This document shows, in pieces, positions 25,459-56,923 of a DNA stretch of 64,000 nt. Position 1 is the first letter of the stretch, and each line of letters begins with the position of its first letter. The translations under genes were made by a program, and so were the position numbers. The stretch lies in the IMG/VR virus record IMGVR_UViG_3300032242_003148, positions 1-64,000 of that record, one strand, 5' to 3'. The notes beneath the pieces are model-generated. The model was not told where the DNA came from. It made no database searches and saw only the letters and a program-made list of their open reading frames with translations. The stretch comes from a virus.

Positions 25459-25719
25459 TTACTTCTTTTTCTTCTTCTTGGCTGCTGCTGCTTTTTTGCA
25501 GGTGAACTTATTCATGAGGCAATCATACTTCTCCATGAGCTGATTATACTTTTTGGTTGCTGATGCAAGACGGCCGCGGAGTGACCAGATTGCCGTGCTG
25601 CTGGAGATACCCAGGCGCATGCCTTCTAACTTCTGGATCTTACCTTCGTTAACTAGTTCCTGAAGGGCTGCAATTACTTCCTGTTCAGTGAATTTTTTTG
25701 TGTTGTTTTTCTTACTCAT
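25459..25719 (-). CDS. Small protein with poly-Lys tail
   Basis: The 86-residue product has a winged-helix-like start (EQEVIAALQELVNEGKIQKL), a helical middle, and ends in AAAAKKKKKK. The lysine tail suggests nucleic-acid binding. It overlaps the resolvase gene by four bases and ends the operon before the terminator. Confidence 0.5.
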   Translation of the reverse strand: MSKKNNTKKFTEQEVIAALQELVNEGKIQKLEGMRLGISSSTAIWSLRGRLASATKKYNQLMEKYDCLMNKFTCKKAAAAKKKKKK

Positions 25720-26225
25720 AACGTACGTGTGTTTTTGATTCTTAGATATTCAGCTATGAGGATTCCGTCAGCGTCTACTTTTAATGGTAGTTTCGGGAAT
25801 AGTCTCTTGCCTACATCTAAACTTCCTTTCTTTAGCTCTTCTTTCTTTAAATTTTTAGGAAGAAGAACTGTCTGCCACTCTTTACTATCAAGATATACAT
25901 AGGGGATTTCGGCTGCTTCTAGGGCGATAAGAGTGGCCTCGATAGCCCTCATAGCACTCATAGATGCAAAGAATCTACCGGGGTTGATCATTGGCCGTTC
26001 TAATCCGGCAATCATACCCGCATCAGGTAAACCTGATGCCTTACCTTTTATTTCCAGGAAGATCTCTAATAGTTTTGGATAGTCTATTCTAGATATGTTC
26101 TTGGCTACTTTGGTATAGCTCAATTCTTTCTTAACGGGAGTTTTATAGAGATAGCTTTCCCCATTACTGAGGATTACCCCTACTCCGTTAGAAGATGTTC
26201 CGTTGTCTATGCCTATGTATATCAT
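25716..26225 (-). CDS. RuvC-like Holliday junction resolvase
   Basis: The 169-residue product has the RNase H-like acidic set of RuvC enzymes: IGIDNGT (D7), GLERP (E76) and DADGILIAEYL (D151, D153). The helix FASMSAMRAIEATL and DSKEWQ also fit phage and pox RuvC-like nucleases. It would cut branched DNA made during recombination or packaging. It lies two small steps downstream of recA. Confidence 0.7.
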   Translation of the reverse strand: MIYIGIDNGTSSNGVGVILSNGESYLYKTPVKKELSYTKVAKNISRIDYPKLLEIFLEIKGKASGLPDAGMIAGLERPMINPGRFFASMSAMRAIEATLIALEAAEIPYVYLDSKEWQTVLLPKNLKKEELKKGSLDVGKRLFPKLPLKVDADGILIAEYLRIKNTRTL

Positions 26226-26419: not shown

Positions 26420-27613
26420 TTAACTTTCAGTGTCCATTTCTAGCTGCGACTTCTTTTTACGACGGGCCTTGTTCTTCTCTTCTATCACCGATGCAACTTC
26501 AGGTGCCGGCATATCAGGAATACCAAAGGCTTGACGTATTAGTTCTTTAGCTTGAGGGCTGTTCATGAGAACCATGCCTAGCTCCATTTCACGATATTTT
26601 TTATCTGTGTCTATGATTGCTGTTGTGGGTTCTCCTGATGAGCTGTCGGTATATTCCACATTAGGCACTTTCCAACTGTACCATCCTCCTGATTTATTTA
26701 CTAACTCAGGATATGTTTCGCCTAGTAGCCTTACCAATGGACTATACCAATCAATACCACCATTGATATATAGGTCAAATTCAACCTTCTGACTATTACC
26801 CTCCCGGCCAAGCTTGTTACGCTTAACTGTTAAGCTATGAGTCGAACCGGCTTTTCTTTTTACACCCATGTGATCTTCTAGTAGTAGGTCTTTGGTTCTG
26901 GCAACCTTGAGCTGATAGGTAGAGTTAAAGCGCTGAGCCTCACCACCTATCAATGCTTCTGGTTTTTCAGCACCAAATGTAACCATTCCTCCAATTTGTT
27001 CTCTCAACTGATTGGTCACCACTAGCACAGCCTTTTCGCTCTCTAGGAGTGGAACAATGTTGCGGTAGAATCCCGCCATGAGCTTTGCATGCTCACCTAC
27101 CTTGGTTTGACCAATCACATCCTGATCACGCTCATACTCTGAAGCAGCACCTGCAACAGAGTCTAACGCAATCATAATAGGTGTTATTTGATCAGGATCT
27201 GCCTTTGGTATATTCTCAATAATAACCTTGATGAGAGTCAATGCCTCTTCAAGGGACTTAGGATTGTGATATATAACTTTCTTAGGGTCGCAACCTTGTA
27301 GCTCCATAAACCTGAAGTCAGGAGCATTCTCAGTTTCTACCCATATGAAATGTCCTCCTGCCCTGATGAATGTTTTGGCTAGTTCGAAAAGAAAGGAAGT
27401 TTTTGCGCAACCTTTCTTTCCGTATACTAGATAGCATCGACCGTAGGCTACAAACCTACGATCGAATACATATTCCATCAAAGGATTATCGAGGACAATT
27501 CCTGTGGGCGGAAGTTCTTTATCTACAGTGTTTAACTCTAGATTATCAGCTTCATCTTTGAACACTTTTTTGAAGTCTTTTTTAACGCCATTCAGGAGCT
27601 TGTCGATATCCAT
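26420..27613 (-). CDS. recA: RecA-like recombinase
   Basis: The 397-residue product has Walker A GKKGCAKTS (residues 65-73), the acidic segment IWVETENAPD, a Walker B-like PIMIALDSVAGA, and VVTNQLREQIGGM in the DNA-binding L2 region. It also has a Lys/Arg-rich C-terminus (KARRKKKSQLE). It forms filaments on single-stranded DNA and drives strand exchange. The SSB-like gene lies seven bases upstream. It is closer to phage RecA/UvsX types than to the full-length bacterial protein, because the usual C-terminal domain differs. Confidence 0.85.
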   Translation of the reverse strand: MDIDKLLNGVKKDFKKVFKDEADNLELNTVDKELPPTGIVLDNPLMEYVFDRRFVAYGRCYLVYGKKGCAKTSFLFELAKTFIRAGGHFIWVETENAPDFRFMELQGCDPKKVIYHNPKSLEEALTLIKVIIENIPKADPDQITPIMIALDSVAGAASEYERDQDVIGQTKVGEHAKLMAGFYRNIVPLLESEKAVLVVTNQLREQIGGMVTFGAEKPEALIGGEAQRFNSTYQLKVARTKDLLLEDHMGVKRKAGSTHSLTVKRNKLGREGNSQKVEFDLYINGGIDWYSPLVRLLGETYPELVNKSGGWYSWKVPNVEYTDSSSGEPTTAIIDTDKKYREMELGMVLMNSPQAKELIRQAFGIPDMPAPEVASVIEEKNKARRKKKSQLEMDTES

Positions 27614-27620
27614 ATTTTAT

Positions 27621-28652
27621 TTAATTACTTGATAAGAAGCTAGCTGCGGCTTCCTTCGTGCTAAACTTCATCATTGGATTTGGTGGAAGCTTACTTGGGT
27701 CGATGTCACCCGGGTCAACAAATGCAGGTTCTTGCTGCGCTGGACGAGCCGCAGGAATTGCAGTGTTGATAGGAACACCTGCCGGTGCTACAGGCTGACT
27801 AACAGGTCTAGCAACAGGAACCTGCTGCTGAACAGGTGGAACGAATCCACTTGAAACACGCTCTATACCAGGAGCCCTGGCAGCTGCACGAAGACCTGGG
27901 AATCCATCCATGCAATGATCAAATACATCGCCTGAATACATATCCCTGAGCTTTGAAATAATCTCATCGTTGCTCTTAATCACAAGAGCTTCGTCTAGAT
28001 TATACATGTTGTCTGCTAGTTCAAGAGGTAGAACTGCTGGCTGTGATGCCTCTACGTTCAAGTACCATGGGTTAGAACTATTGTCCTTGAGCTGAACAAA
28101 CACAGGAAGGGCGCGCTCTGGATCATTGATCAAGGGGCGGGCATTTCCAGCGATGTCTGTTTTGCTCAGCCAATCATGGATTTGGCTTGCACCATTATAG
28201 CTAGGGATGTCTAGAACATGAACACCAGCAGCAATGTTGCTTGCGTAAACAACGTTGAATATCTGGCGCTTGGTAACCCTGCCGAAGTTTGGATACTTCT
28301 TGAAGGTTTTACCGTTCACGTTAACTGTTGCCCCTGCTTCATCCTGGGCGTAGCCAAGGTTCTTGTAATTGTTAGCGAAATATTCCGCAGGATCATTATT
28401 GCGATTAGGCACATAGTATTTCTCTTTGTACTTATCACCAAAATTATCACGGATTTCAAACGCCTTGTACCAGACACCATTACCGAATGCGTCTGCCTTG
28501 TAGCCAGGCATGAAGTACAGATAAACACCATTTTGATTAGTATTCTTGTTGAAGAGTACTTTCCTCACGTTTTCATGAATATAGGGTGTGTTGTTCTGGA
28601 CTTGTCCTGTTTCTGCTCCGTCGAACTTTAAGCTAGGTTTAATAAATGCCAT
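27621..28652 (-). CDS. Single-stranded DNA-binding protein (gp32-like, putative)
   Basis: The N-terminal 230 residues contain GVYLYFMPGYKADAF and KEKYYVPNRNNDPAEYF, reminiscent of the core of T4-type SSB. They are followed by a Pro/Ala/Gln-rich linker at about 270-315 and a short conserved-looking end (PPNPMMKFSTKEAAASFL). The tail is not acidic, unlike classic SSBs. Position directly upstream of recA supports the call. Confidence 0.5.
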   Translation of the reverse strand: MAFIKPSLKFDGAETGQVQNNTPYIHENVRKVLFNKNTNQNGVYLYFMPGYKADAFGNGVWYKAFEIRDNFGDKYKEKYYVPNRNNDPAEYFANNYKNLGYAQDEAGATVNVNGKTFKKYPNFGRVTKRQIFNVVYASNIAAGVHVLDIPSYNGASQIHDWLSKTDIAGNARPLINDPERALPVFVQLKDNSSNPWYLNVEASQPAVLPLELADNMYNLDEALVIKSNDEIISKLRDMYSGDVFDHCMDGFPGLRAAARAPGIERVSSGFVPPVQQQVPVARPVSQPVAPAGVPINTAIPAARPAQQEPAFVDPGDIDPSKLPPNPMMKFSTKEAAASFLSSN

Positions 28653-28964: not shown

Positions 28965-29561
28965 TCAGATCATGAACAACTTCTTATCAGTTCGCTCTCC
29001 GCGAATAAAATTCAGGAAAACCTGAACCATCATACCTGCAACTACCGTGGGCAGAGTGTGACTGATGTTTGATTCTTTCTCATGCTTCAACAAGCAACCA
29101 CCACGAATGTCATCGTTGGTGATATATTTTTTGAGCTCTTCTTCTGGTAGCTTTGAATTAAACAAGGCACCCTGGCGACTAGTGCAACGACCATCAATCC
29201 AGAAGTTCTTGTCTTTGTTCTGGAAGCTCCAGTTATATAGTGTGCGGCGGAATTCCATACTGTCCACACAGCTGAAGATAACATCATATTTCTTGAAGTC
29301 CTTCTCCTCCATGAACTTATTAATTCCGTTCACCACATAACGATCTTCTAGCACTTTTACCTTTGGCTTGCCCACATCATCAATCTTATAGTTTTGATGT
29401 AGTAGGTTAGAGGTATCGATGATGTCATTATCATAGATATCAACATCCACACCAGAGTAATCAAATTGCTTACGGTTAAAGCCGTAGTCAAATAGGATAC
29501 CCAATAAGTTTGAACCAATGCCTCCGGCACCGGCTATACCAATTTTTTTTAGTTTAGTCAT
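28965..29561 (-). CDS. E1/ThiF-like adenylyltransferase
   Basis: The 198-residue product has the full adenylation signature: GAGGIGS loop (residues 11-17), DxD in YDNDIID, SNLLHQ where E1 enzymes have SNLxRQ, GKPKV, and FSCVDSMEFRRTL (D100, R105). GGCLLKHE gives a candidate catalytic Cys at 156. E1/ThiF proteins activate the C-terminal Gly of ubiquitin-like proteins. The usual Arg of the NLxRQ motif is His here, and the protein is short. It overlaps the JAMM protease gene by eight bases, which strongly suggests a common pathway. Confidence 0.75.
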   Translation of the reverse strand: MTKLKKIGIAGAGGIGSNLLGILFDYGFNRKQFDYSGVDVDIYDNDIIDTSNLLHQNYKIDDVGKPKVKVLEDRYVVNGINKFMEEKDFKKYDVIFSCVDSMEFRRTLYNWSFQNKDKNFWIDGRCTSRQGALFNSKLPEEELKKYITNDDIRGGCLLKHEKESNISHTLPTVVAGMMVQVFLNFIRGERTDKKLFMI

Positions 29562-30018
29562 TATAGTTAGTTAGATATTGCAGTGTTTCTAGTCCCATTG
29601 TGAATGTGTGCAGATCTTTCTGCGCTGACCATTCAGAGCATGAGAATTCTCTGTGCTTGTTTGAATATATATAGTTATATTTGAACCCCTGGAATAACTT
29701 GTCGTAATCCAGTTGGCTTGGCATAGGAGAGAACTGTGGGTGAGTATGAAAACTACCATACATGTTCCAGCCTTTATTCATCATAGGGATAATCTTTTCC
29801 CCGAACTCTTTATGGTCTGTTTCATATAAACCGTAAGCAACAGGCTCTCCCTCATGAACGTTTTTAACTTTTACGAAGATAAAGTCCTTATTGTCTCTGG
29901 TTAATATGATACCACCCTCCTCCTCGTTATCCCGGCGACACTCTATAGCGGCACCGGTGATAACTCTGGAGATACGTGTATTTATTTCTTTTATTACGCG
30001 CATGGAATTAATTGCCAT
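29554..30018 (-). CDS. JAB/MPN (JAMM) metalloprotease
   Basis: The 154-residue product has a perfect JAMM zinc motif, HTHP..(7)..SQLD with H91, H93, S101 and D104, and an upstream Glu in EEEGGIIL. JAMM proteases cleave after the terminal Gly-Gly of ubiquitin-like proteins, either to mature them or to remove them from targets. It lies between a 3'-5' exonuclease gene (25-base overlap) and the E1-like gene. A start five codons later (30003) is also possible. Confidence 0.8.
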   Translation of the reverse strand: MAINSMRVIKEINTRISRVITGAAIECRRDNEEEGGIILTRDNKDFIFVKVKNVHEGEPVAYGLYETDHKEFGEKIIPMMNKGWNMYGSFHTHPQFSPMPSQLDYDKLFQGFKYNYIYSNKHREFSCSEWSAQKDLHTFTMGLETLQYLTNYND

Positions 30019-30662
30019 TTCTCGGCGATCTTCTTTGTTAGTAATAGGTCGTTCCTGAGATAGGCTTTGGCCGCCTCAGTATCCCGCTCGTAGGTCTGAT
30101 AGAATAACTCTTCAGACTTATCCTTGTCACCTACTTCAAGGTGCAATGCTAGCTCCTTGAGGCTGGTGTAGTCCTTTCTACGGCAATCCCACATAGCGGC
30201 AAGATCAATAGATCCAGAGTCATATGCAAAACCGCCATCTGTACGGAAGAACTTAGTAAATAGGTTTTTACCATACTTCAATCCCCTGCGGCAAAGGAAT
30301 GGAATATCAAAGTTATTACCGTTAAAAGTAATAATGTTATACGCCCTACCTCCAGGCATGCCGTCAGCTCCGTCAAAGTAGACCAATAGGTCACTGAAGA
30401 TATTTATGAGTTTTTCCTCACTCATACCACAGTATAACTCAGGTTCTTCTTTGCCTATCTCCCAAATACCAATAGCACAGACCTTAGAAGTTAATGCAGA
30501 TAGTGTGCACTTATCGTAGAAGCTAGCTTCTTTACTCCTCAAGTCTTCTGCTACCTTAACAGGGTCTTTTAGCCTGCTATCAGCCTTGAACTCTGGTATG
30601 AATGGCGCTATCTCCTCTTTGGAAAGAGGAGCCGTTTCTATATCTATAATGTATGTGTTCAT
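29994..30662 (-). CDS. DnaQ/PolB-type 3'-5' exonuclease
   Basis: This 222-residue protein has the three exonuclease motifs: DIET at the N-terminus (D7, E9), ITFNGNNFDIPFL, and YLRNDLLLTKKIAEKW. It looks like the free-standing predicted PolB-like 3'-5' exonucleases. It may proofread or trim DNA ends. The stop lies inside the next gene start. Confidence 0.7.
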   Translation of the reverse strand: MNTYIIDIETAPLSKEEIAPFIPEFKADSRLKDPVKVAEDLRSKEASFYDKCTLSALTSKVCAIGIWEIGKEEPELYCGMSEEKLINIFSDLLVYFDGADGMPGGRAYNIITFNGNNFDIPFLCRRGLKYGKNLFTKFFRTDGGFAYDSGSIDLAAMWDCRRKDYTSLKELALHLEVGDKDKSEELFYQTYERDTEAAKAYLRNDLLLTKKIAEKWQLIPCA

Positions 30663-30684
30663 AATTTAATTTGTTGCTATGGCT

Positions 30685-30713
30685 TGGTGGGTAAGGATTT
30701 GCCCTACCCACCA
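30685..30713 (-). other. Perfect 9-bp hairpin between genes
   Basis: TGGTGGGTA at 30685 pairs with TACCCACCA at 30705. It lies in the 60-base gap between the 72-residue gene and the exonuclease gene. No T run follows, so it is more likely an RNA stability or processing element than a terminator. Confidence 0.5.
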
Positions 30714-30722
30714 TGTTGATTA

Positions 30723-30941
30723 TTACTCAGAGTATCCTCCGTAGTAATCATTATTAGCCATATTGGTTTTTACTCTTACTGCGTCTGATCTGCCTTCTGT
30801 TAGTCTGTGGAATATATTTAATATTCTTATGTATCCCTTATCTGTTTTAACAGAAGATTTACCAAGTCCTGTTACCTTCTGCCTATGATTAAACTTAAAC
30901 TCTAACTGCACTGTTTTTTTATTTTTTTGGGTGCTTTGCAT
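30723..30941 (-). CDS. Unknown 72-residue protein
   Basis: A basic protein (TVQLEFKFNHRQKVTGLG) with an Asn/Tyr/Gly-rich end (NNDYYGGYSE). No family is recognised. It lies 23 bases downstream of the 690-residue gene. Confidence 0.45.
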   Translation of the reverse strand: MQSTQKNKKTVQLEFKFNHRQKVTGLGKSSVKTDKGYIRILNIFHRLTEGRSDAVRVKTNMANNDYYGGYSE

Positions 30942-30964
30942 AGGGTTATATATTTAATAGGTTA

Positions 30965-33037
30965 TTAGGCAGTGAGGTCTAACTGGTCAATTATATCCGC
31001 CACATCATCGCGATCAGGCTGATAGTCATTATGGGCATTCTCATACTGCGGCTGAGCTTCTCCCTTTAGTGTGCCTATTTTGCCCTGCATAACAGAGTCA
31101 TTTTTCAACACATATAGCCTGGCTGCGATATCATCATAGCCAGCACCACGGAAGTGATTATCGTTAACAATACAGCGATATTGCTTTGATTCAAAGTCGT
31201 ATACCTTTGCGTTCTCAACAACTATCGCATATGTTCTAAGACTACCCTTGACCTTGTAGGCTTTCTTGCCCAGGAACTCTATCATTTCTGCTCCTGTTAC
31301 CTTCACAGCACTATCAAGGAAGTTTTTGCTCCTCTCAATAGATTGCTTCTTAGCCTGGTCAGCAACATCAATGATCTTCTTGATGTCATCTGACGTTACC
31401 GTGGTGGTTGTGATGGAATTTTCTGTGCCATCTTCATTTTTTGTAACTGTGGTGAACGTGCAGCAATCCCTGATGGCTCTTGCTAACTCTTCTCTGGCCC
31501 AGCGCCAATTACGGGTTTTGCTAGCCTTGTTACTCCAACGGTCATTGGTTTTCTTGTTAATTGTATCAATTCTAGTAATCAATTTACCAAGACTAACCTT
31601 ACCACCATCATCTCCCTCTACCCTGATCTTGATGCATTTTGCAGCAGGATCAATCCAGAACTTAACAGGTGGAGCAGCAGAGCTGGCTACAGGGCTGTTA
31701 TATTCATCGCGGGTTATAAGGCTATGCATTTTAACAGGCAAGCCATTTGCTATAGCATCATGCCAGCGTATGCTCATTTTGCTGATTCTTCGCACAAACA
31801 GATTATATTCATCCAGGTTGTGATGACAGCTTGCACGATACATAACCTGCTGAACCTCAACAGCATTTATTCTTTTGCCGTTGATCTTTCTGGCTCCATG
31901 TTTGTTCTTGGTAACCTGCACATCAAATCCATTGATTTTAACCAATGGGAATGTATATGTTGCATCGTTAACTTCTTGGGCGTCAACTATATCCTCAAAG
32001 GCATTTGTATAAGTCTCTATGATGGTATAGATGTCAAACTCACCACCAAAGTTGAGTTTTTCGTATAGCACATCAAGTAGGTTATCGCCCTCTATGCTGA
32101 TGTTCTCATACACAGCTGACTTCTTGGTAAGCATGATATTGTTGATGCTGGCTTTTTCAATTTCGCCGGCCTTTAACTTATTGATTACCAGCAGAGAAGT
32201 GTTATTTTGATAATCCTTCTCTATGAACCCTCTGAGCTCATCATACTTACCACGTAGCTTAGGTGGTAGCTTCTTCTCCATTTTCAATCGCATCATCTGC
32301 GCTTCTGTGGAGTGTACAAAGCTGTTATTTTTTAGCATTGTGCATAGCTTAGGATGTAGTGATGCCAGCAGATAGATATGCATTGTGTGTATATCTAGCT
32401 CATTGGTTATAACAATATATCTTTCCTCTTTACCTGATAGGGAAGTATTTGAGAATCCCAGAATAAAGAATCCTTTATCTAGGTAATCATATATAGCGTC
32501 ATCATCACGCCCTATAACAAGTATTTTATTATTTGTATGGGCAGTAGTAACAATCCTATAGGTGTGATTATTCTCCATTACCTCTAGTGGGCTATTCTGA
32601 ATAACATAAGGAGTACGGATTGTATCCGGCATGTCCTTTGGAATAAATCTCATGGTTTTGAACCGCTTGGCAAGTTCAGGGCCATTAGCTTTGTTTATCT
32701 TTTTAGCAGTTCCCTTCTTTTCAGATTCTCCATACTTTAGGGAATCATAGAATTTATGCCCTGGTGTTCCGGAGTTATTCTTATTTGCGAACAAATTTCC
32801 AAGCTCTAGTCCGTTTGTGTTTATTTGTGCTACCTTGGCGTAATTCCATGCAGCTTGAAGTGTTTTGAACTTCAGCTTGTGAATCTTCATGGTGTAGGCA
32901 TTATCATGTGGGAATGGCTTACCATGATTCACTTTTTGCCAGTCGATCTCGAATTCCACAGCACCCTCCGCAGGGAATGCTTTTAACTTATTGAATAAAT
33001 TAATGTATGATTTAAATTTTTTAATAGATAGTTCCAT
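30965..33037 (-). CDS. Large unknown 690-residue protein
   Basis: No catalytic motif is recognised. The first 130 residues are basic, the middle is mixed alpha/beta, and residues about 530-590 form a helical basic stretch (KIIDVADQAKKQSIERSKNF). A distinct C-terminal module follows (KVKGSLRTYAIVVENAKVY, YRCIVND, GYDDIAARLYVLKND). It lies between the ubiquitin-like candidate and the JAMM/E1 genes, so it is one candidate substrate or partner of that pathway. This is inference from position only. Confidence 0.6.
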   Translation of the reverse strand: MELSIKKFKSYINLFNKLKAFPAEGAVEFEIDWQKVNHGKPFPHDNAYTMKIHKLKFKTLQAAWNYAKVAQINTNGLELGNLFANKNNSGTPGHKFYDSLKYGESEKKGTAKKINKANGPELAKRFKTMRFIPKDMPDTIRTPYVIQNSPLEVMENNHTYRIVTTAHTNNKILVIGRDDDAIYDYLDKGFFILGFSNTSLSGKEERYIVITNELDIHTMHIYLLASLHPKLCTMLKNNSFVHSTEAQMMRLKMEKKLPPKLRGKYDELRGFIEKDYQNNTSLLVINKLKAGEIEKASINNIMLTKKSAVYENISIEGDNLLDVLYEKLNFGGEFDIYTIIETYTNAFEDIVDAQEVNDATYTFPLVKINGFDVQVTKNKHGARKINGKRINAVEVQQVMYRASCHHNLDEYNLFVRRISKMSIRWHDAIANGLPVKMHSLITRDEYNSPVASSAAPPVKFWIDPAAKCIKIRVEGDDGGKVSLGKLITRIDTINKKTNDRWSNKASKTRNWRWAREELARAIRDCCTFTTVTKNEDGTENSITTTTVTSDDIKKIIDVADQAKKQSIERSKNFLDSAVKVTGAEMIEFLGKKAYKVKGSLRTYAIVVENAKVYDFESKQYRCIVNDNHFRGAGYDDIAARLYVLKNDSVMQGKIGTLKGEAQPQYENAHNDYQPDRDDVADIIDQLDLTA

Positions 33038-33057
33038 GTATGTATATGGTTAGTTGT

Positions 33058-33100
33058 TTAAAATAGAAGTGGGAGAAGGGAAATTAATCCCCTCTCCCAC
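33058..33100 (-). terminator. Terminator or attenuator after the ubiquitin-like candidate
   Basis: On the minus strand GTGGGAGAGGGGA pairs with TTCCCTTCTCCCAC in a 13-pair stem with one G-U. TTCTATTTT follows. It lies 21 bases past the stop of the 33122-33385 gene. The T tract is imperfect, so some read-through into the 690-residue gene is likely. Confidence 0.65.
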
Positions 33101-33121
33101 AACATTATTGCCTAACGGCGA

Positions 33122-33385
33122 TTACTTGCTGCCGCCAACAAGAGTTCCAGAAAGAACAATGTTGGTATCCTCAGCTTTACCAAGACGAAGAGCGAGCTTC
33201 TCCTTGTTCTTGTCTGAGGTGACTTCTCCACCATCAAACTCGAAGAGCTGACCGTCGATCCATACCCAGTGGGCGTGTGAGGCCACCTTTTCGGTGATTG
33301 CGGTTACAGCCTGATCCAGGGTCTGGTCAGCGAGTTCAGTGTGTCCGGTGTTATCGGAGATTTTAACGATGTATTTCTTGTCCAT
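33122..33385 (-). CDS. Candidate ubiquitin-like protein with C-terminal Gly-Gly-Ser-Lys
   Basis: The 87-residue product reads as strand (KYIVKISD), strand (HTELAD), helix (TLDQAVTAITEKVASHA), strand pair (HWVWIDGQLFEF), a charged loop, and a last strand (TNIVLSGTLV), the order of a beta-grasp fold. It ends in GGSK: Gly84-Gly85 plus two residues that would have to be clipped off before activation. A JAMM protease and an E1-like enzyme lie in the same leftward block. I see no close match to a named ubiquitin-like family, so this is a structural inference. A plain small phage protein with a chance GG is the alternative. Confidence 0.45.
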   Translation of the reverse strand: MDKKYIVKISDNTGHTELADQTLDQAVTAITEKVASHAHWVWIDGQLFEFDGGEVTSDKNKEKLALRLGKAEDTNIVLSGTLVGGSK

Positions 33386-33432: not shown

Positions 33433-34164
33433 TTACTTCTGCCCAAAAAGCGCCTGAGCAACGACGTGTAGGTTCTCTAGATAGCCTGCATCGATAATCC
33501 TATCGATATAGCTCTTTCCAGAGTAGTTCTTAGCTTTACCCAATCCGATCTCCTCCAAGGTATAACCCTGTTTGCCTAGCTCGATGCGCATAATGCGATC
33601 AAACTGTGCATAGAGTGCCTTGTAGGTATTACGATGATCTTCACGGTCACTTGCCTGAACCTGTTCAGGGGTTAAACCCTTCATCTCGATCTGGCGCATG
33701 GCTTCCTTGTGGACCAACTTGTTGATCTCATCCTTGAGATTACGCTTTAACGTTTCCTCAGGTGATGTGATGTGACTACGCACGGCATCAACAGTGAGCT
33801 TTGGCATCACTGGTTGAGCTTTTGGAATATCCGCTTCAATTTGAGGGATTTCTTTTTGCGCTTCTAGACTCGCACCCTGGGTAGGGTTAACACCCTTGAA
33901 GGTGTAACCCGCTGTGGTTGCGGATTTCTTGATTGGTGTTGGACCGCAAGATGCATTGTATAGATGCACGTTATTGGCCAACACAAACTGGCGATTACGT
34001 GTAACACCATCAATGGTAACGCGTTCTGTGAAGATTGCGTTTTCCTTTTTGAAGGCATTAACAGGAGTCATTCCGGCGTGTTCAACAAGATCACTCACGC
34101 AATATGCGGGGTGTCCGTTGACTGTGGCTGTTCTCAGGTTTGCTGTGTTTATAGGTACTTTCAT
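33433..34164 (-). CDS. Unknown protein with BRO/KilA-like N-terminus
   Basis: The N-terminal 75 residues (HPAYCVSDLVEHAGMTPVNAFKK.. to NRQFVLANNVHLY) recall the BRO-N or KilA-type DNA-binding domains of phages, but the match is weak. Residues 130-243 are helical and charged. It could be a regulator. It starts 55 bases after the Gp88-like gene. Confidence 0.45.
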   Translation of the reverse strand: MKVPINTANLRTATVNGHPAYCVSDLVEHAGMTPVNAFKKENAIFTERVTIDGVTRNRQFVLANNVHLYNASCGPTPIKKSATTAGYTFKGVNPTQGASLEAQKEIPQIEADIPKAQPVMPKLTVDAVRSHITSPEETLKRNLKDEINKLVHKEAMRQIEMKGLTPEQVQASDREDHRNTYKALYAQFDRIMRIELGKQGYTLEEIGLGKAKNYSGKSYIDRIIDAGYLENLHVVAQALFGQK

Positions 34165-34219: not shown

Positions 34220-34954
34220 CTATTTGTGTATAGGAAATTGTATATGCCTCAACTTACCCGTTTTAAGGGGTCTGTCAATGCATGCCCTGCATCTACTGCA
34301 GGCACCGTAATCTTTTGTACTCTTGGTCTGCTTGTTAACAGCAGGACAAGATAGATACTCTCTATCGTTTAAAAGTTCTTCTGGAAAGGTATCACCCATC
34401 CAAGCAATAGCCACATTAGGATAATCCCTGTATGGCTCGTATGCTTTTAGAACTTGTTTTATATTAACAGGGTCACAACTCAGATATATGGATAAGTTCT
34501 TAACCTCTGCTAGGATAGGTATGGCGAATAGAGACCTGGTATACCCCCAGAATCTAGTATTCGGCCATTCCTTCATAACATGGGCCCAAGCTCTTGCGTA
34601 GACTTCGTTAAAGAAATCTCCTCCCATATGCAGCCTGAAGAACTGCTTGGTGTTTCCACCGCCCAATAAAAACTTCAGTACTGTGTTTCTTATTATCTCC
34701 ACCATAAGAGGATAATCAGCTTTCAATATGATGTTGGTATTGTGATCCTCCACCTTTTGATAGTTCTTGTATATCCTGCTTGTGGTACAAGCATAACAAA
34801 CATCCTCACAACCCTCATCTCCACCTGTGGCTCCTGGACAAGTACCACCTCGTTCTGGTTTACCGGTTTTGAGTCCGAATGTGTTTTTATGGTTTTTGTG
34901 AAACCTTGTTTTCCTGTTCTCTGATAACTTAAAGCTTAATAGGCTGTTTAGCAT
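34220..34954 (-). CDS. Gp88-like cysteine-rich protein
   Basis: This 244-residue protein fits the phage Gp88 family. It has LKTGKPERGGTCPGA, GCEDVCYACTTSRIY, then FFRLHMGGDFFNEVYARAWA, and a C-terminal Cys group (SCPAVNK, CSRCRACID). The Cys pattern suggests a metal or iron-sulfur centre. The fold has been likened to radical-SAM proteins, but no function is established. It lies just after a zinc-ribbon gene and the polymerase. Confidence 0.6.
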   Translation of the reverse strand: MLNSLLSFKLSENRKTRFHKNHKNTFGLKTGKPERGGTCPGATGGDEGCEDVCYACTTSRIYKNYQKVEDHNTNIILKADYPLMVEIIRNTVLKFLLGGGNTKQFFRLHMGGDFFNEVYARAWAHVMKEWPNTRFWGYTRSLFAIPILAEVKNLSIYLSCDPVNIKQVLKAYEPYRDYPNVAIAWMGDTFPEELLNDREYLSCPAVNKQTKSTKDYGACSRCRACIDRPLKTGKLRHIQFPIHK

Positions 34955-35158: not shown

Positions 35159-37846
35159 TTAATGGCTCCAGTCCCATGATTGGGTCTGATTGTTCCAAAC
35201 TGTTTCTTTCTCGAAGAATTTCTTCTTACCTTTCCATCTGTCACTAACAACTAACTCACAACCTAGTTTATCTCCTGTGGCGATTCTTGTGTAATCACAG
35301 AAGACATGTCTTAGTATCTCAGGAAGATAGTTATCTTTCATAAGATCTTTGTGAGCAATCCAGTAGTTAGCATCATGTACCACATTAACAGGATAAATAT
35401 ATTTCATCCAGAGGCCCTCACTCTTTAGGAATTTTCTGATGTTCACAGAAGCATACCACATGAACAACGCCAATTCAGAAGCCACAGGAAAAGCTAAACT
35501 CTCATTCAGCCAACCTGCCTTGATTCCGAAATTGTCTGTTTTTTCATATGATAACTGCATACCTCTGGCATTAGATATTCTTTCGTAAGCGTTAACCTCA
35601 GCATTACATTCTTCTCTATACCCCATGTATGTACTATATCTCTTCCAGGTTTCCAAAGCATATTGAATCAGCTCTAGCGGAACATGTAATCCGTTTTCAG
35701 CGTAGATCTCAGCCTGAATAGGAATTGCGGCATAGTCCAGCCCTGCAGTATAAGAAACACGAAATGTGATACTCTTTGCGATAACATATTTAGAAACATC
35801 TTTCTTGGATAACCCAGGGTCTTGGAAGTATTCTCGCATCTTGGTTTGATGGAAATTTCCTGCCCTGATATCCTTGATAAACGCTTCATCCTTGCTAAGG
35901 AATGCCATAATTGCAAGGTCTGCACCTGCAATGTCTAGCTCTACCCAATGATAATCCTGACTACCGGAGTAGAATATATTCCTGATGTTGTCTGGTAGCT
36001 TACTGTTGTGATTAGCTTGTTCATCCTTGGTCATTAATGAATAACCAGGTACGAAGATATTAGGGATGTGAGCCAACACCTTTGATGCAGGATTTTGGAC
36101 GTTTGGAGAGCTAGATGCTCGGAAGTTTTTAAGAAGCTCAAAGAAGCTTGCATGTACTCTTCCGTCATTAGCAATCGCCGCCCAATAACTCTGCTTTAGT
36201 GGTTCATCATCATCGCCATCCTCTAACTCTGATTCATCCATGACCACACCTTTCTTGGATAAGAACTTAGTAGCGAATACTCCTATTCTGGAAATATTCA
36301 ACAATAGTTCTACCGCCTTGTGCTTGACTTTTAGATCTTCAGAGTCGTTCTCCTCCATATCCTCCTCTAGTTCGAACTTGATGGTGGATAGGGATTTACC
36401 ATTTGTGCTAGGTGAGAATAGCCTTTGTGTTTGGGGGCTCTGCTTCTCGTACCATACTCTAGGCTTTGGTGACTTTCCTGCTTTTGTATAGTATGCAGGA
36501 GGTAACGCCAAAGTACTGAATAAGAATTCTTTCTTTTGCAGTGAAGAGTTAGGATTGAACCCCTTGATACCAAAGTGGTTATCCATAAAGGTATCCATCT
36601 CCTCTCTCAAGCTGTTATATTTATTCAAATATTTATCAGTGATCTCATTTAATACATCAAGGTCTATGGGTATGCCGGTAAGCTCCATATCCAGGAAGTA
36701 ATTTGTGAGAGGTAGATAAACACCGTCATAATAACCCTTTAGCTCTTTTGGGAAACCCTCACGCATTCTTAAACACGCTTCACGATGAGCCACAGCATCA
36801 CCAGCACAATAATGATAATATGTGTCAGGTTCAAAGAACTTCATCTTTGCTAATGCTGCCTTTGGCAACTTATGCTCTTTCATCTTACGATAGAAAGGAA
36901 CATAGTATGGCTCATAGTTAGTAAACTTCTTAATGCCTGTTTCTAGGCCCTTGGCCATTCTAGAGTCAAAGAAAGCCACTGCCTTCATACCATCAAACCC
37001 TAGAGTCTCATCCGCTAGTTTAAACCCTCTATAGGTCAACCTGATATCGTCAGCGCGTATATTCCAGCCTAGCCTATCTGCTTTAGGATGCTCTAGAATA
37101 AGCTTCATGGTATCTAGTAGCTCACGGTTCTCTGTTACACCATCCTTGGATATGTTAAGAACCACGGCCACATGCTTTTCGCAAGAGTATTGAAACTCAT
37201 ACATCACCTCGTCATCAGTGAACTTACTCCCATACCACTCAGCATCATAACCAATAGAAAACATTTCCCTGGATATATAGTCTTTTAGTATGGCTATATT
37301 CTCTTCAGGACTATCCACTATCTTGTATGTATACTCTTGGTACTGGAGATTATTATCCACTGCTTTTTTGGCTAGCATGAATATATCTCTAAACTCAGGA
37401 CGTTTTGTAGGGTCCTGAACTGTGACCATTCCTGGTGAATAATTAGCTAGTAGCTTACCGTATGGGGAATCTATGATTTCGCCGAGGTAGTCTCCTACCT
37501 TCATATTGGTTTTCATGATTCTCTTGAATACTTCAGCGCCTAGACTAATGATTAGCTGTGGTTTGATTTCTTCTATCTCCTTATCCAGCTTTTCACTCCA
37601 GAATTCTATATCTTCTGCTGGTGGCTTTGGCTTGCTACCTATGCCATTTCTTACCATAGCAGTGAAGTAGCATTCTTCTACTGGTATCTCTGCCTCTTCC
37701 AGGGCATCTAATACTTCGTTGGCTGATCCCCCAGACCTACCAAAATGAGCAACCTGAAGGTCGTCCTTGGTGGGATGGGAGAATACGATCATATATTTCG
37801 CCCCCGGTCCTCCTCTGGGTTTTACTTCTACTTTTGTGTCGCTCAT
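35159..37846 (-). CDS. Family A DNA polymerase with N-terminal UDG-like domain
   Basis: The 895-residue protein starts with a uracil-DNA-glycosylase-superfamily-like region (about 15-165: YMIVFSHPTKDD, PQLIISLGAEVFKR, LLANYSPGM), as in some SPO1-like phage polymerases. The 3'-5' exonuclease motifs follow: GYDAEW (D201, E203), WNIRADD and YCAGD (D350). The polymerase has SSSPNVQNPAS, motif A ELDIAGADLA (D638), motif B AKSITFRVSY (K691, F695, Y699) and motif C VVHDA (D825). Two usual residues differ: the steric-gate Glu is Asp (D643), and the Glu after the motif C Asp is Ala. It is the main replicase. Confidence 0.85.
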   Translation of the reverse strand: MSDTKVEVKPRGGPGAKYMIVFSHPTKDDLQVAHFGRSGGSANEVLDALEEAEIPVEECYFTAMVRNGIGSKPKPPAEDIEFWSEKLDKEIEEIKPQLIISLGAEVFKRIMKTNMKVGDYLGEIIDSPYGKLLANYSPGMVTVQDPTKRPEFRDIFMLAKKAVDNNLQYQEYTYKIVDSPEENIAILKDYISREMFSIGYDAEWYGSKFTDDEVMYEFQYSCEKHVAVVLNISKDGVTENRELLDTMKLILEHPKADRLGWNIRADDIRLTYRGFKLADETLGFDGMKAVAFFDSRMAKGLETGIKKFTNYEPYYVPFYRKMKEHKLPKAALAKMKFFEPDTYYHYCAGDAVAHREACLRMREGFPKELKGYYDGVYLPLTNYFLDMELTGIPIDLDVLNEITDKYLNKYNSLREEMDTFMDNHFGIKGFNPNSSLQKKEFLFSTLALPPAYYTKAGKSPKPRVWYEKQSPQTQRLFSPSTNGKSLSTIKFELEEDMEENDSEDLKVKHKAVELLLNISRIGVFATKFLSKKGVVMDESELEDGDDDEPLKQSYWAAIANDGRVHASFFELLKNFRASSSPNVQNPASKVLAHIPNIFVPGYSLMTKDEQANHNSKLPDNIRNIFYSGSQDYHWVELDIAGADLAIMAFLSKDEAFIKDIRAGNFHQTKMREYFQDPGLSKKDVSKYVIAKSITFRVSYTAGLDYAAIPIQAEIYAENGLHVPLELIQYALETWKRYSTYMGYREECNAEVNAYERISNARGMQLSYEKTDNFGIKAGWLNESLAFPVASELALFMWYASVNIRKFLKSEGLWMKYIYPVNVVHDANYWIAHKDLMKDNYLPEILRHVFCDYTRIATGDKLGCELVVSDRWKGKKKFFEKETVWNNQTQSWDWSH

Positions 37847-49248: not shown

Positions 49249-50253
49249 TTATACCTCAAGCTTACGGAAGTATTCCCCAGAGATATTGGCCACATCGGTC
49301 ATACTCTTGGCTTCCGAGATAACATTGGTTAACACTCCCTGCAGTTCTTTGACTGCGTCCTTGTCCTTAGCAAAGTCTGTTTCTCCTTTAAGGAGCTTTT
49401 CGACCTTGCTAAGCTCTGCCTCTATGGTCTTATCTTCTATGAAGTTAAGATCACGGAACTCGTTGATGTGTTTCATGAGTGTTTTGATGCTGGTCTCGGA
49501 AACAACCTCTTTCTTTGAGATTTTACCAAGTACAACAGAGCAATGTTCAACCACCTTGCTACGCAGGGTGTTGATAACATCGCCAACGAACTCGTTGATT
49601 TTACCCATGTGAGTATCCAACTGGTTCTTGTACTCCTGCTTGTACTGACGCGCAGCTGCAAGTTTAGCTTCACCAGCAGCCTGCTCACGATTGATTTCAG
49701 TATGAATATCAATGTCAGCAAACTCAGTAGGCAGTTTAACCTCGAAGGATACAATTTCGAATGAGAACTTGCTCTTCACGTTTTCAACGCTAGGATATAG
49801 ATATTCCATATCATCAACATTGATCTGGTCTGCAAACTGCTTGTAGTACTCTATAGCCTCCTCCTTGTAGGTTGGATACTTCTCGATAAACTCATCACGC
49901 ATTTGGATGAACGCTTCTTTATACTCATTCAGCTTCTGATAGACCTCTACATACCTTGCCTTAGGGACAAAGTGTGCTTGAGGAACCAGTGGAAACTGGA
50001 ATGAGTTGGCGTACAAGTAGTTACGGGCCTTGGCCTGTAGACTGCGGAACAGGTTATGTACCGCAGGCTTGATAAGCATTTTCTTGCCGAGCTGAATAAC
50101 CTCAGGAAGTTTGTTATCTAATTTGATATCTTCTTCCGTGAGGCTGTAGCTCATTCCCCACATTGCTATGTGTACATTCACAAGCTTTCCATCTTGGAAT
50201 ACCTTGTCGTAGTACTGCTGCAGTGTGTCTGATATTTTGTGTTCTCTTTCCAT
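49249..50253 (-). CDS. DUF3150-like protein
   Basis: The 334-residue product contains VHIAMWGMSYSLTEEDI, LGKKMLIKPAVHNLFRSLQ, FVPKARYVEVYQKL and a long helical C-terminus. This arrangement matches DUF3150 proteins, which often sit next to AAA ATPases. It lies one base downstream of the Ycf46-type ATPase. They probably form a complex, but what it does is unknown. Confidence 0.6.
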   Translation of the reverse strand: MEREHKISDTLQQYYDKVFQDGKLVNVHIAMWGMSYSLTEEDIKLDNKLPEVIQLGKKMLIKPAVHNLFRSLQAKARNYLYANSFQFPLVPQAHFVPKARYVEVYQKLNEYKEAFIQMRDEFIEKYPTYKEEAIEYYKQFADQINVDDMEYLYPSVENVKSKFSFEIVSFEVKLPTEFADIDIHTEINREQAAGEAKLAAARQYKQEYKNQLDTHMGKINEFVGDVINTLRSKVVEHCSVVLGKISKKEVVSETSIKTLMKHINEFRDLNFIEDKTIEAELSKVEKLLKGETDFAKDKDAVKELQGVLTNVISEAKSMTDVANISGEYFRKLEV

Positions 50254-50254
50254 A

Positions 50255-51823
50255 TTATTCCATTGAGATGCTAAGCTTTCGCATAGCGGTTTCTATTGTT
50301 TGGGTTTCGCCCTGATCGTTAAGCATGACTAGCTTGCCGCGGGCTTGTTTACGCATGGTCTGAAGATCTTCCTCGTGCGAATGGGCAAAAGGAATAAACT
50401 CATCCAACTCTGCTAATACATCCTTATCGGATATTTCTTTACCAACATCAAATGCCCTGAACAATGCAGATTTAACCACATCTTCAATCTCAGCACCTGT
50501 GAATTCATCTGATTCAACAACAAATTTCTTTAGATCGAAATCTGAGGGATTGCGGCCATATTTCTTCAATACTACATTGAAGATTTCACGACGTTCTTCA
50601 TCGCTAGGTAGATCAACCCAGAATAACTGGTCAAACCTACCCTTACGAATAAGAGGTGTTGGTAGTATGGTATGATCATTAGAGGTTGCCACAATAAAGG
50701 CAGGATTAGTCCTGTCATTGAGCCAGCCAAGGAACGTACCAAAAATACGAGAGCTAACACCCGTATCCCCCTTACCTGAAACTGCGTCCTTACTAAGACT
50801 CTTTTCAATCTCATCAATAAGGATTACGCATTTACCAATGCTCTCTATAACCTTGATTGCTTCTCGCATGTTACGCTCACTATTACCAACATGAGAATCA
50901 AAGATAGACCCCATGTCGAATTGGAACAATGGGCAGTCAAACTCCTTGGCAATAGATTTACTCACTAGAGTCTTACCCACACCAGGCACAGAGGCCAGCA
51001 ATATACCCTTTGGTAGAGGCAGCTTATAGTCTCTTGCATCCTGTGAATACGCCTTTTTCCTAGAGCGAATCCAACGTTTTAGGCCGTTAAGCCCACCCAC
51101 ATTATCAAACGATATATCAGATGGGATATAGGTTAGCAGTCCATTTTTCTTCAGCTGCTGAATCTTCTCATCGAATACCGTACCCACAAATGGCTGTTCA
51201 AAGCTCTTCGTGGTGGTGTATGCCATAGCAAAAGCATTCTCAATTTCACCAAAGGTCATACCCTTGGCTGCTTCTACTGCCGCTTCTTTGATTTCTTCAG
51301 GAACCACTAGGGCGTCCATTTTATTGTCCTCCCGGGCCTTGTTAACAGAATCAATAATAAATGCTAGACGCTCCTCTATGCTCTTTGCACCAGGGAGATC
51401 GTAGTCTATCAACTGAATCTCTTTTTCCATTTCCGCAGGTATTGCGAATTTATGGCCAACAAGAACCAACATGTTACCCTTGGTCTTTAGAATATTCCAA
51501 AGGTTCCTGAGCAGGCGGATGTTAATCACCTTGTCGAAGTGAAGGTGGAAGTCTTTTAGGATAAAGATATTATCCTCTTCTCTGTAGCTCTGTAGATACT
51601 TGAGAAGCTCTGTGCTGTTATTTAGCCCTTCTGGGTGAATTTGATTTGTATCTTTAAGATTAACCAATCCACGTTGGGCATCCCAGGTGTGTATCTTTGT
51701 TACCTCATCCGTGGAGAATAGCTCCAGGATATCTTTTACTACCCTCTCCTCCTCATGGGTTAGGATGAACAGGCTAGGATAGTGTGCTTTGTAATAGTTT
51801 TTGAATTTTTGTGTGAATTCCAT
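50255..51823 (-). CDS. Ycf46-type AAA ATPase
   Basis: The 522-residue protein has an N-terminal part of Ycf46 style (YPSLFILTHEEERVVKDI) and an AAA core. DNVGGLNGLKRWIRSRKKA comes first, then Walker A SVPGVGKT (278-285), Walker B CVILIDEIEKSL, the sensor IVATSN and an Arg finger LIRKGRFDQLF. These are hallmarks of Ycf46, a plastid and cyanobacterial ATPase family. With DUF3150, DUF1257 and DUF2997 it makes a conserved module of unknown function. Confidence 0.8.
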   Translation of the reverse strand: MEFTQKFKNYYKAHYPSLFILTHEEERVVKDILELFSTDEVTKIHTWDAQRGLVNLKDTNQIHPEGLNNSTELLKYLQSYREEDNIFILKDFHLHFDKVINIRLLRNLWNILKTKGNMLVLVGHKFAIPAEMEKEIQLIDYDLPGAKSIEERLAFIIDSVNKAREDNKMDALVVPEEIKEAAVEAAKGMTFGEIENAFAMAYTTTKSFEQPFVGTVFDEKIQQLKKNGLLTYIPSDISFDNVGGLNGLKRWIRSRKKAYSQDARDYKLPLPKGILLASVPGVGKTLVSKSIAKEFDCPLFQFDMGSIFDSHVGNSERNMREAIKVIESIGKCVILIDEIEKSLSKDAVSGKGDTGVSSRIFGTFLGWLNDRTNPAFIVATSNDHTILPTPLIRKGRFDQLFWVDLPSDEERREIFNVVLKKYGRNPSDFDLKKFVVESDEFTGAEIEDVVKSALFRAFDVGKEISDKDVLAELDEFIPFAHSHEEDLQTMRKQARGKLVMLNDQGETQTIETAMRKLSISME

Positions 51824-56881: not shown

Positions 56882-56923
56882 AAAAAACCTCCCTGGTGCG
56901 CTTCAGTGAGAGGCGTGGGAGGT
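56882..56923 (-). terminator. Terminator after the 350-residue gene
   Basis: On the minus strand ACCTCCC pairs with GGGAGGT around a loop with a CGC/GCG inner pairing. TTTTTTATT follows. It ends the transcript of the gene at 56946-57998. Confidence 0.75.

Follow-up and report, generated by a model that had tools for sequence, protein, structure and literature searches.

We report what is probably a complete phage-encoded ubiquitin-like (Ubl) pathway, carried as core genes by a single lineage of large, uncultured phages. Comparison of gene content and sequence among the relatives shows that a predicted Ubl precursor, a JAMM protease with an intact motif, an E1-like enzyme, and a 690-aa partner protein are co-inherited within a replication/recombination block. 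Since no relative that could be checked lacks any of the four, these viruses probably tag proteins in the manner of ubiquitin, and we take protein conjugation to be the probable purpose of the pathway.

Gene block and its relatives

The window analyzed here, a stretch of 64 000 nucleotides, comprises bases 1–64000 of a 165.6-kb virus record. Its minus strand encodes, in transcription order, a family A DNA polymerase, a GP88-family protein, a 243-aa protein, the 87-aa Ubl candidate, the 690-aa protein, a 72-aa ORF, an exonuclease-like protein, the JAMM protease, the E1-like enzyme, a 100-aa protein, a 343-aa protein, and RecA-like and RuvC-like proteins (Table 1). The 243-aa (positions 33433–34164) and 343-aa neighbors have no family match; the latter is present in every contig that reaches its place and may, from position alone, be a single-strand-binding protein. 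The remainder of the record (64001–165606) encodes subunits of a multisubunit RNA polymerase (Rpb1/Rpb2-type), both ribonucleotide reductase subunits, PhoH, a subtilase, and an ATP-dependent DNA ligase. Elsewhere in the window, also on the minus strand, we noted a DUF3150 protein adjoining an AAA ATPase with weak Cdc48-type lid matches (49249–51823), and an abiF RNA match that lies barely above its gathering score (56887–56922; 37.3 versus 37 bits).

Table 1. Features of the gene block and its neighbors, with positions in the window
Feature	Position	Strand	Remarks
RuvC-like conserved neighbor	25716..26225	−	Named by reading the sequence, with no database match behind the name
RecA/UvsX-like recombinase, neighbor	26420..27613	−	
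343-aa conserved neighbor	27621..28652	−	Gene-order conservation
E1-like (ThiF) enzyme	28965..29561	−	PF00899 ThiF, E = 2e-19; candidate catalytic Cys156
JAMM/MPN+ protease	29554..30018	−	PF14464 Prok-JAB, 7.5e-10
3'–5' exonuclease-like protein	29994..30662	−	RNase_H_2, 6e-6; missing in about half of loci
72-aa ORF	30723..30941	−	Close relatives only
690-aa partner protein, no known fold	30965..33037	−	Invariant C404 and C622; DUF7737-like C-terminal stretch
Intrinsic-terminator-like hairpin directly 3' of Ubl gene	33069..33100	−	13 pairs; fold z = −6.7
Ubl candidate, 87 aa	33122..33385	−	Beta-grasp-like; ends LSGTLVGG/SK (slash after Gly-Gly)
GP88-family neighbor	34220..34954	−	4.3e-31
Family A DNA polymerase, neighbor	35159..37846	−	

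The same block, comprising DNA polymerase, Ubl, 690-aa protein, JAMM, E1, RecA-like protein, and RuvC, was found in 30 further viral contigs, of which 27 were retrieved through the E1, two through the 690-aa protein (L051 and L057), and one through the JAMM (L166). Queries with the E1, JAMM, Ubl, and 690-aa protein against viral contigs all recover one common set. Contigs L002 and L003 are ∼99% identical to the window, and L051 breaks off before the JAMM and E1 genes. The order Ubl–690-aa–(exonuclease)–JAMM–E1–343-aa–RecA is constant in all complete contigs. A preliminary description of this DNA had treated the 690-aa protein and the exonuclease alike, as genes lying between the parts of the system; the placement holds, but the 690-aa protein proves to be a constant member of the set, as are the Ubl, JAMM, and E1, whereas the exonuclease, like the 72-aa ORF, is optional. 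Identity to the window's E1 is ∼65–89% in the main clade and ∼50% in divergent members, about the same as for DNA polymerase and RecA; because E1 identity tracks these two, we regard the E1 as a core gene of the lineage. Some of the source metagenomes are presumably lake samples, judging from their metagenome numbers. Bacterial genomes searched for relatives yielded only ordinary ThiF, tblastn of cultured phages with E1, JAMM, and 690-aa queries yielded no relative, and we found no description of a phage Ubl–E1–JAMM set in the openly accessible literature.

Every relative sampled retains the set next to its DNA polymerase and RecA genes, which points to a core function rather than to an accessory anti-host tool. 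The preliminary description had proposed either a conjugation or sulfur-transfer system of the phage's own or a tool for undoing host conjugation, and it is the second proposal that this universal retention disfavors. Under such a counter-defense role, the E1, JAMM, and Ubl would imitate and interfere with the Ubl systems of the host (type II CBASS, Bil), for instance by stripping host conjugates. Enzymes of this kind do serve bacterial defense (PMC10097602), and the phage JAMM matches PADLOC JAB models while the E1 weakly matches PADLOC E1–E2 models. We nonetheless consider the role quite improbable: the set occurs in all sampled relatives, its E1 is as conserved as DNA polymerase and RecA, unlike typical accessory counter-defense genes, and the phage itself provides a processed Ubl, seemingly in excess.

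Ubl candidate, JAMM protease, and E1-like enzyme

The 87-aa ORF, first singled out for its Gly-Gly-Ser-Lys end, is confirmed and ends in LVGGSK. Gly-Gly is found near the C-terminus of all 29 complete Ubls (those of the window, 27 further contigs, and L166); homologs that lack it while keeping JAMM and E1 neighbors were sought as evidence against a Ubl, and none occurs among the 29. No residue follows the Gly-Gly in L009, L019, L037, and L166, and 1–9 residues follow it in most others; divergent members have tails of 109 (L020), 157 (L040), and 75 residues (L041). This combination of a constant Gly-Gly and an unconserved tail is the pattern expected of a Ubl precursor that is cut after Gly-Gly. 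The dN/dS of the gene is ∼0.1–0.14. The extended Ubls are encoded at L040:6650–7381, L041:6922–7407, and L020:6813–7406, and the extensions of L040 and L041 resemble each other.

Profile searches gave no family match for the Ubl, and sequence-based PDB searches with profiles of the Ubl and of the 690-aa protein returned nothing useful. An AlphaFold2 model of the Ubl (pLDDT 78) has the order strand–strand–helix–strand–strand–helix–strand and a floppy LVGGSK end. With this model, the top Foldseek hits are to ISG15, and the list is made up mostly of ubiquitin, SUMO, PB1, UBX, and further beta-grasp domains, at weak statistics (best E-value 0.046, TM-score 0.39–0.45). The proposed strand and helix order is thus present in the prediction, but the fold match is statistically weak, and the model, though consistent with a beta-grasp fold, is no proof of it. 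One could argue from the weak fold statistics and the lack of a family match that the 87-aa protein is no Ubl at all and has its neighbors by coincidence; given that Gly-Gly is universal, with free tails, and that JAMM and E1 accompany it in all complete relatives, we judge this extremely improbable.

Directly 3' of the Ubl stop codon, a strong hairpin with a T-run is present in 23 of 25 loci, and L166 also has a terminator hairpin at this place. At ΔG ≤ −18, 21 of 24 loci have such a hairpin 3' of the Ubl, as compared to 0/24 for RecA, 0/25 for JAMM, 1/10 for the exonuclease, 2/24 for E1, 3/25 for the 690-aa gene, and 6/21 for a 61-aa gene. The stems vary in sequence between phages, so it is the structure that is kept and not the sequence. 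This recurrence bears out the initial suggestion that a terminator parts the Ubl gene from the rest, possibly for production in excess; a terminator so placed supports separate, and probably higher, expression of the Ubl.

The JAMM and E1 genes, whose products both pass their Pfam cut-offs (Table 1), overlap by 8 nt, and the coordinates and motifs initially assigned to them were confirmed. The window's JAMM has the motif HTHPQFSPMPSQLD and an upstream Glu in EEGG. This Glu and the HxHx7-8SxxD motif are complete in 30 of 30 cases (29 aligned proteins and L166), including L009, L019, L037, and L166, where the Ubl already ends in Gly-Gly. Since the JAMM is intact where its Ubl needs no trimming, its role probably extends beyond maturation, which favors conjugate removal. 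It also weakly matches a desampylase model (9.9e-5) and the tail protein phrog_5556.

The E1 is compact (198 aa), with a dN/dS of ∼0.03, and it carries GAGGIGS and, as its DxD, DND. The glycine loop, the first Asp, the Lys, and the later Asp are kept in phage E1s. Adenylation is nevertheless uncertain, because every phage E1 has a His where ThiF and PRTRC enzymes have the Arg of their NxxRQ motif, because the phage E1 begins right at the first strand, and because DEAS replaces DxD in L166, with loss of the second Asp. C156 is the sole cysteine invariant in 29 of 29 E1s with the complete region; of three mostly conserved cysteines, C98 is lost in L041 and L166, and C126 in L166. Placed by eye on an alignment, C156 falls near the conserved SCS...E cysteine of PRTRC ThiF, and we infer that it is the candidate catalytic cysteine. 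A LAGLIDADG-type endonuclease ORF lies inside the E1 gene of L018 (L018:8828–9990), at the codons of the nucleotide-binding Asp motif; this insertion has no Rfam intron match.

The 690-aa partner protein

The 690-aa protein is present in every contig that reaches its place, with lengths of 660–730 aa, and C404 and C622 are among 36 residues invariant across 20 aligned members (including L166, L040, and L041). It has no PDB relative, either by sequence or by a fold search of its model; the fold search gave one unnamed viral match (A0A516M0H5, E-value 6e-7). A weak match to DUF7737 recurs in the C-terminal part of 16 of 17 members (best 0.0025), and hhalign comparison to DUF7737 gives 82–85% against two sequences. 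We rejected two candidate identities. A fusion of PRTRC_F and PRTRC_B would fit in place and summed length, but hhalign gives no similarity; an E2 fold at the C-terminus is suggested by strand order in the model, but has no HMM or fold support.

The preliminary description saw no E2, and our searches agree: both PF00179 and PF14460 are absent from the whole virus record. The absence of these E2 families and the lack of an E2 match for the 690-aa protein are among the features that speak against conjugation. The 690-aa protein may be a putative Ubl acceptor or transfer enzyme. We advance only tentatively, and with more doubt than confidence, the stronger proposal that through its invariant Cys622 or Cys404 it acts as a new, non-UBC transfer enzyme of E2/E3 type or as a dedicated acceptor, in an essential, virus-specific pathway whose tag controls the phage replication/recombination machinery.

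Sulfur transfer is the main rival to conjugation. As a sulfur carrier, the Ubl would be matured by the JAMM and adenylated by the E1, and its thiocarboxylate would give sulfur to a tRNA, nucleotide, or cofactor, as in the quinolobactin and CysO pathways, with the 690-aa protein as the acceptor enzyme. JAMM–E1–Ubl trios do occur in sulfur pathways (PMC1779556, rows 4a–4e), the E1 is also ThiF-like (6.8e-13 against the ThiF model), the phage encodes tRNAs, and an E2 was not found in the record. Yet the E1 is closer to PRTRC ThiF than to ThiF, the neighbors are replication genes, and the JAMM is retained even with Ubls that need no trimming. Moreover, rhodanese (PF00581) is absent from the record and none is fused, although a host enzyme could serve, and no sulfur-metabolism family is among the matches listed (25 of 39 for one part of the record). 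We therefore hold a sulfur-carrier role to be unlikely, and favor conjugation.

Known systems and the proposed pathway

The plasmid PRTRC module (operon type 6d of Iyer et al. 2006) consists of C (Ubl), F, B (E2-like), A (JAMM), and ThiF (E1) (PMC1779556). The phage set is collinear with it (Ubl, large gene or genes, JAMM, E1) apart from the F/B position, where one 690-aa protein without E2 match takes the place of F and B, and the profile nearest to the phage E1 is PRTRC ThiF (hhalign 99.5%, score 148, versus 103 for bacterial ThiF). Against the PRTRC_ThiF model, however, the E1 scores 51 bits and does not reach the cut-off of 144.75; it also differs in its compactness and its NLLHQ motif. 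PRTRC_B/Prok-E2_D has no match in the record, nor to the 690-aa protein, which matches no F profile either; a PRTRC_C-type Ubl was not matched by HMM or hhalign; and the JAMM, 154 aa without the N-terminal domain of the PRTRC_A type, has no profile match to it. Plasmid PRTRC_C ends in a single Gly with no tail, in contrast to the Gly-Gly, mostly with a tail, of the phage Ubl. On these sequence tests, the phage set is not a PRTRC member. It is accordingly very improbable, in our estimate, that it is the PRTRC system proper, taken from plasmids for replicon maintenance, despite the collinear order, the nearest E1 profile, and the existence of PRTRC modules in cultured phages.

Two such modules came to our notice. 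In the cultured 217-kb Bacillus phage vB_BauM_KLEB27-3 (OM634661.1), gp199 (L167:718–1425) consists of four tandem PRTRC_C-like Ubl repeats, each ending GVKG, which resemble a polyubiquitin precursor; PRTRC_B-like, PRTRC_A JAMM, and ThiF genes lie just downstream. The 32.9-kb genome of the cultured Burkholderia phage BgVeeders33 (OK665841.1) contains a PRTRC C–F–B–A–ThiF module (L168:2737–6660), in which C, F, B, and A score above curated cut-offs and PRTRC_C has GTKGG followed by ∼60 extra residues. Phage-borne Ubl modules are therefore not unique. Both clusters hold Ubl, JAMM, and E1 in one block, as here, but both are PRTRC-like and include a PRTRC_B (E2-like) gene; the window's family is distinct from them and has no recognizable E2.

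Other known systems share parts of the set. Archaeal SAMPs are Ubls attached to lysines and removed by a JAMM (PMC4443979). The SAMP system (UbaA E1, SAMP Ubl, HvJAMM1) has the E1, Ubl, and JAMM in common with the phage, whose JAMM weakly resembles the desampylase as noted above, but is chromosomal and without a 690-aa partner. SAMPs are made with a free C-terminal Gly-Gly, and we know of no E2 in the system. The lambda/T1 tail genes I (Ubl) and K (JAMM plus NlpC) are a phage-encoded pair (PMC1779556), but without an E1 and with a role in tail assembly, whereas here an E1 is present and the neighbors are replication genes. Type II CBASS Cap2/Cap3 and Bil have an E1 and a JAMM and perform reversible conjugation (PMC10097602); they differ in being bacterial defenses with an E1–E2 present, and CBASS conjugates cGAS rather than a free Ubl.

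By analogy, the phage set would work like the SAMP or PRTRC pathway. In the conjugation pathway that we propose, the JAMM would clip the residues after the Ubl Gly-Gly, and the E1 would adenylate the exposed Gly-Gly and load the Ubl onto Cys156. The Ubl would then be joined to a protein, a step in which the 690-aa protein would serve as acceptor or ligase-like partner, and the JAMM would take attached Ubl off again, making the tagging reversible; the terminator after the Ubl gene would keep the modifier more abundant than the enzymes. Judging only from the position of the genes, the probable target is a protein that acts in phage DNA metabolism.

To our knowledge, the known prokaryotic Ubl systems are those of cells, plasmids, or bacterial defense. 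The phage Ubl/JAMM pair in the literature that we consulted, that of the lambda tail genes, has no E1; here an E1 joins the set. The four genes offer a compact system for studying Ubl transfer without a recognizable E2, in which the 690-aa protein, if the proposal is true, is a candidate new transfer enzyme. A lineage that keeps a Ubl, an E1, a JAMM, and one more protein as a core set would show viruses running ubiquitin-like tagging of their own.
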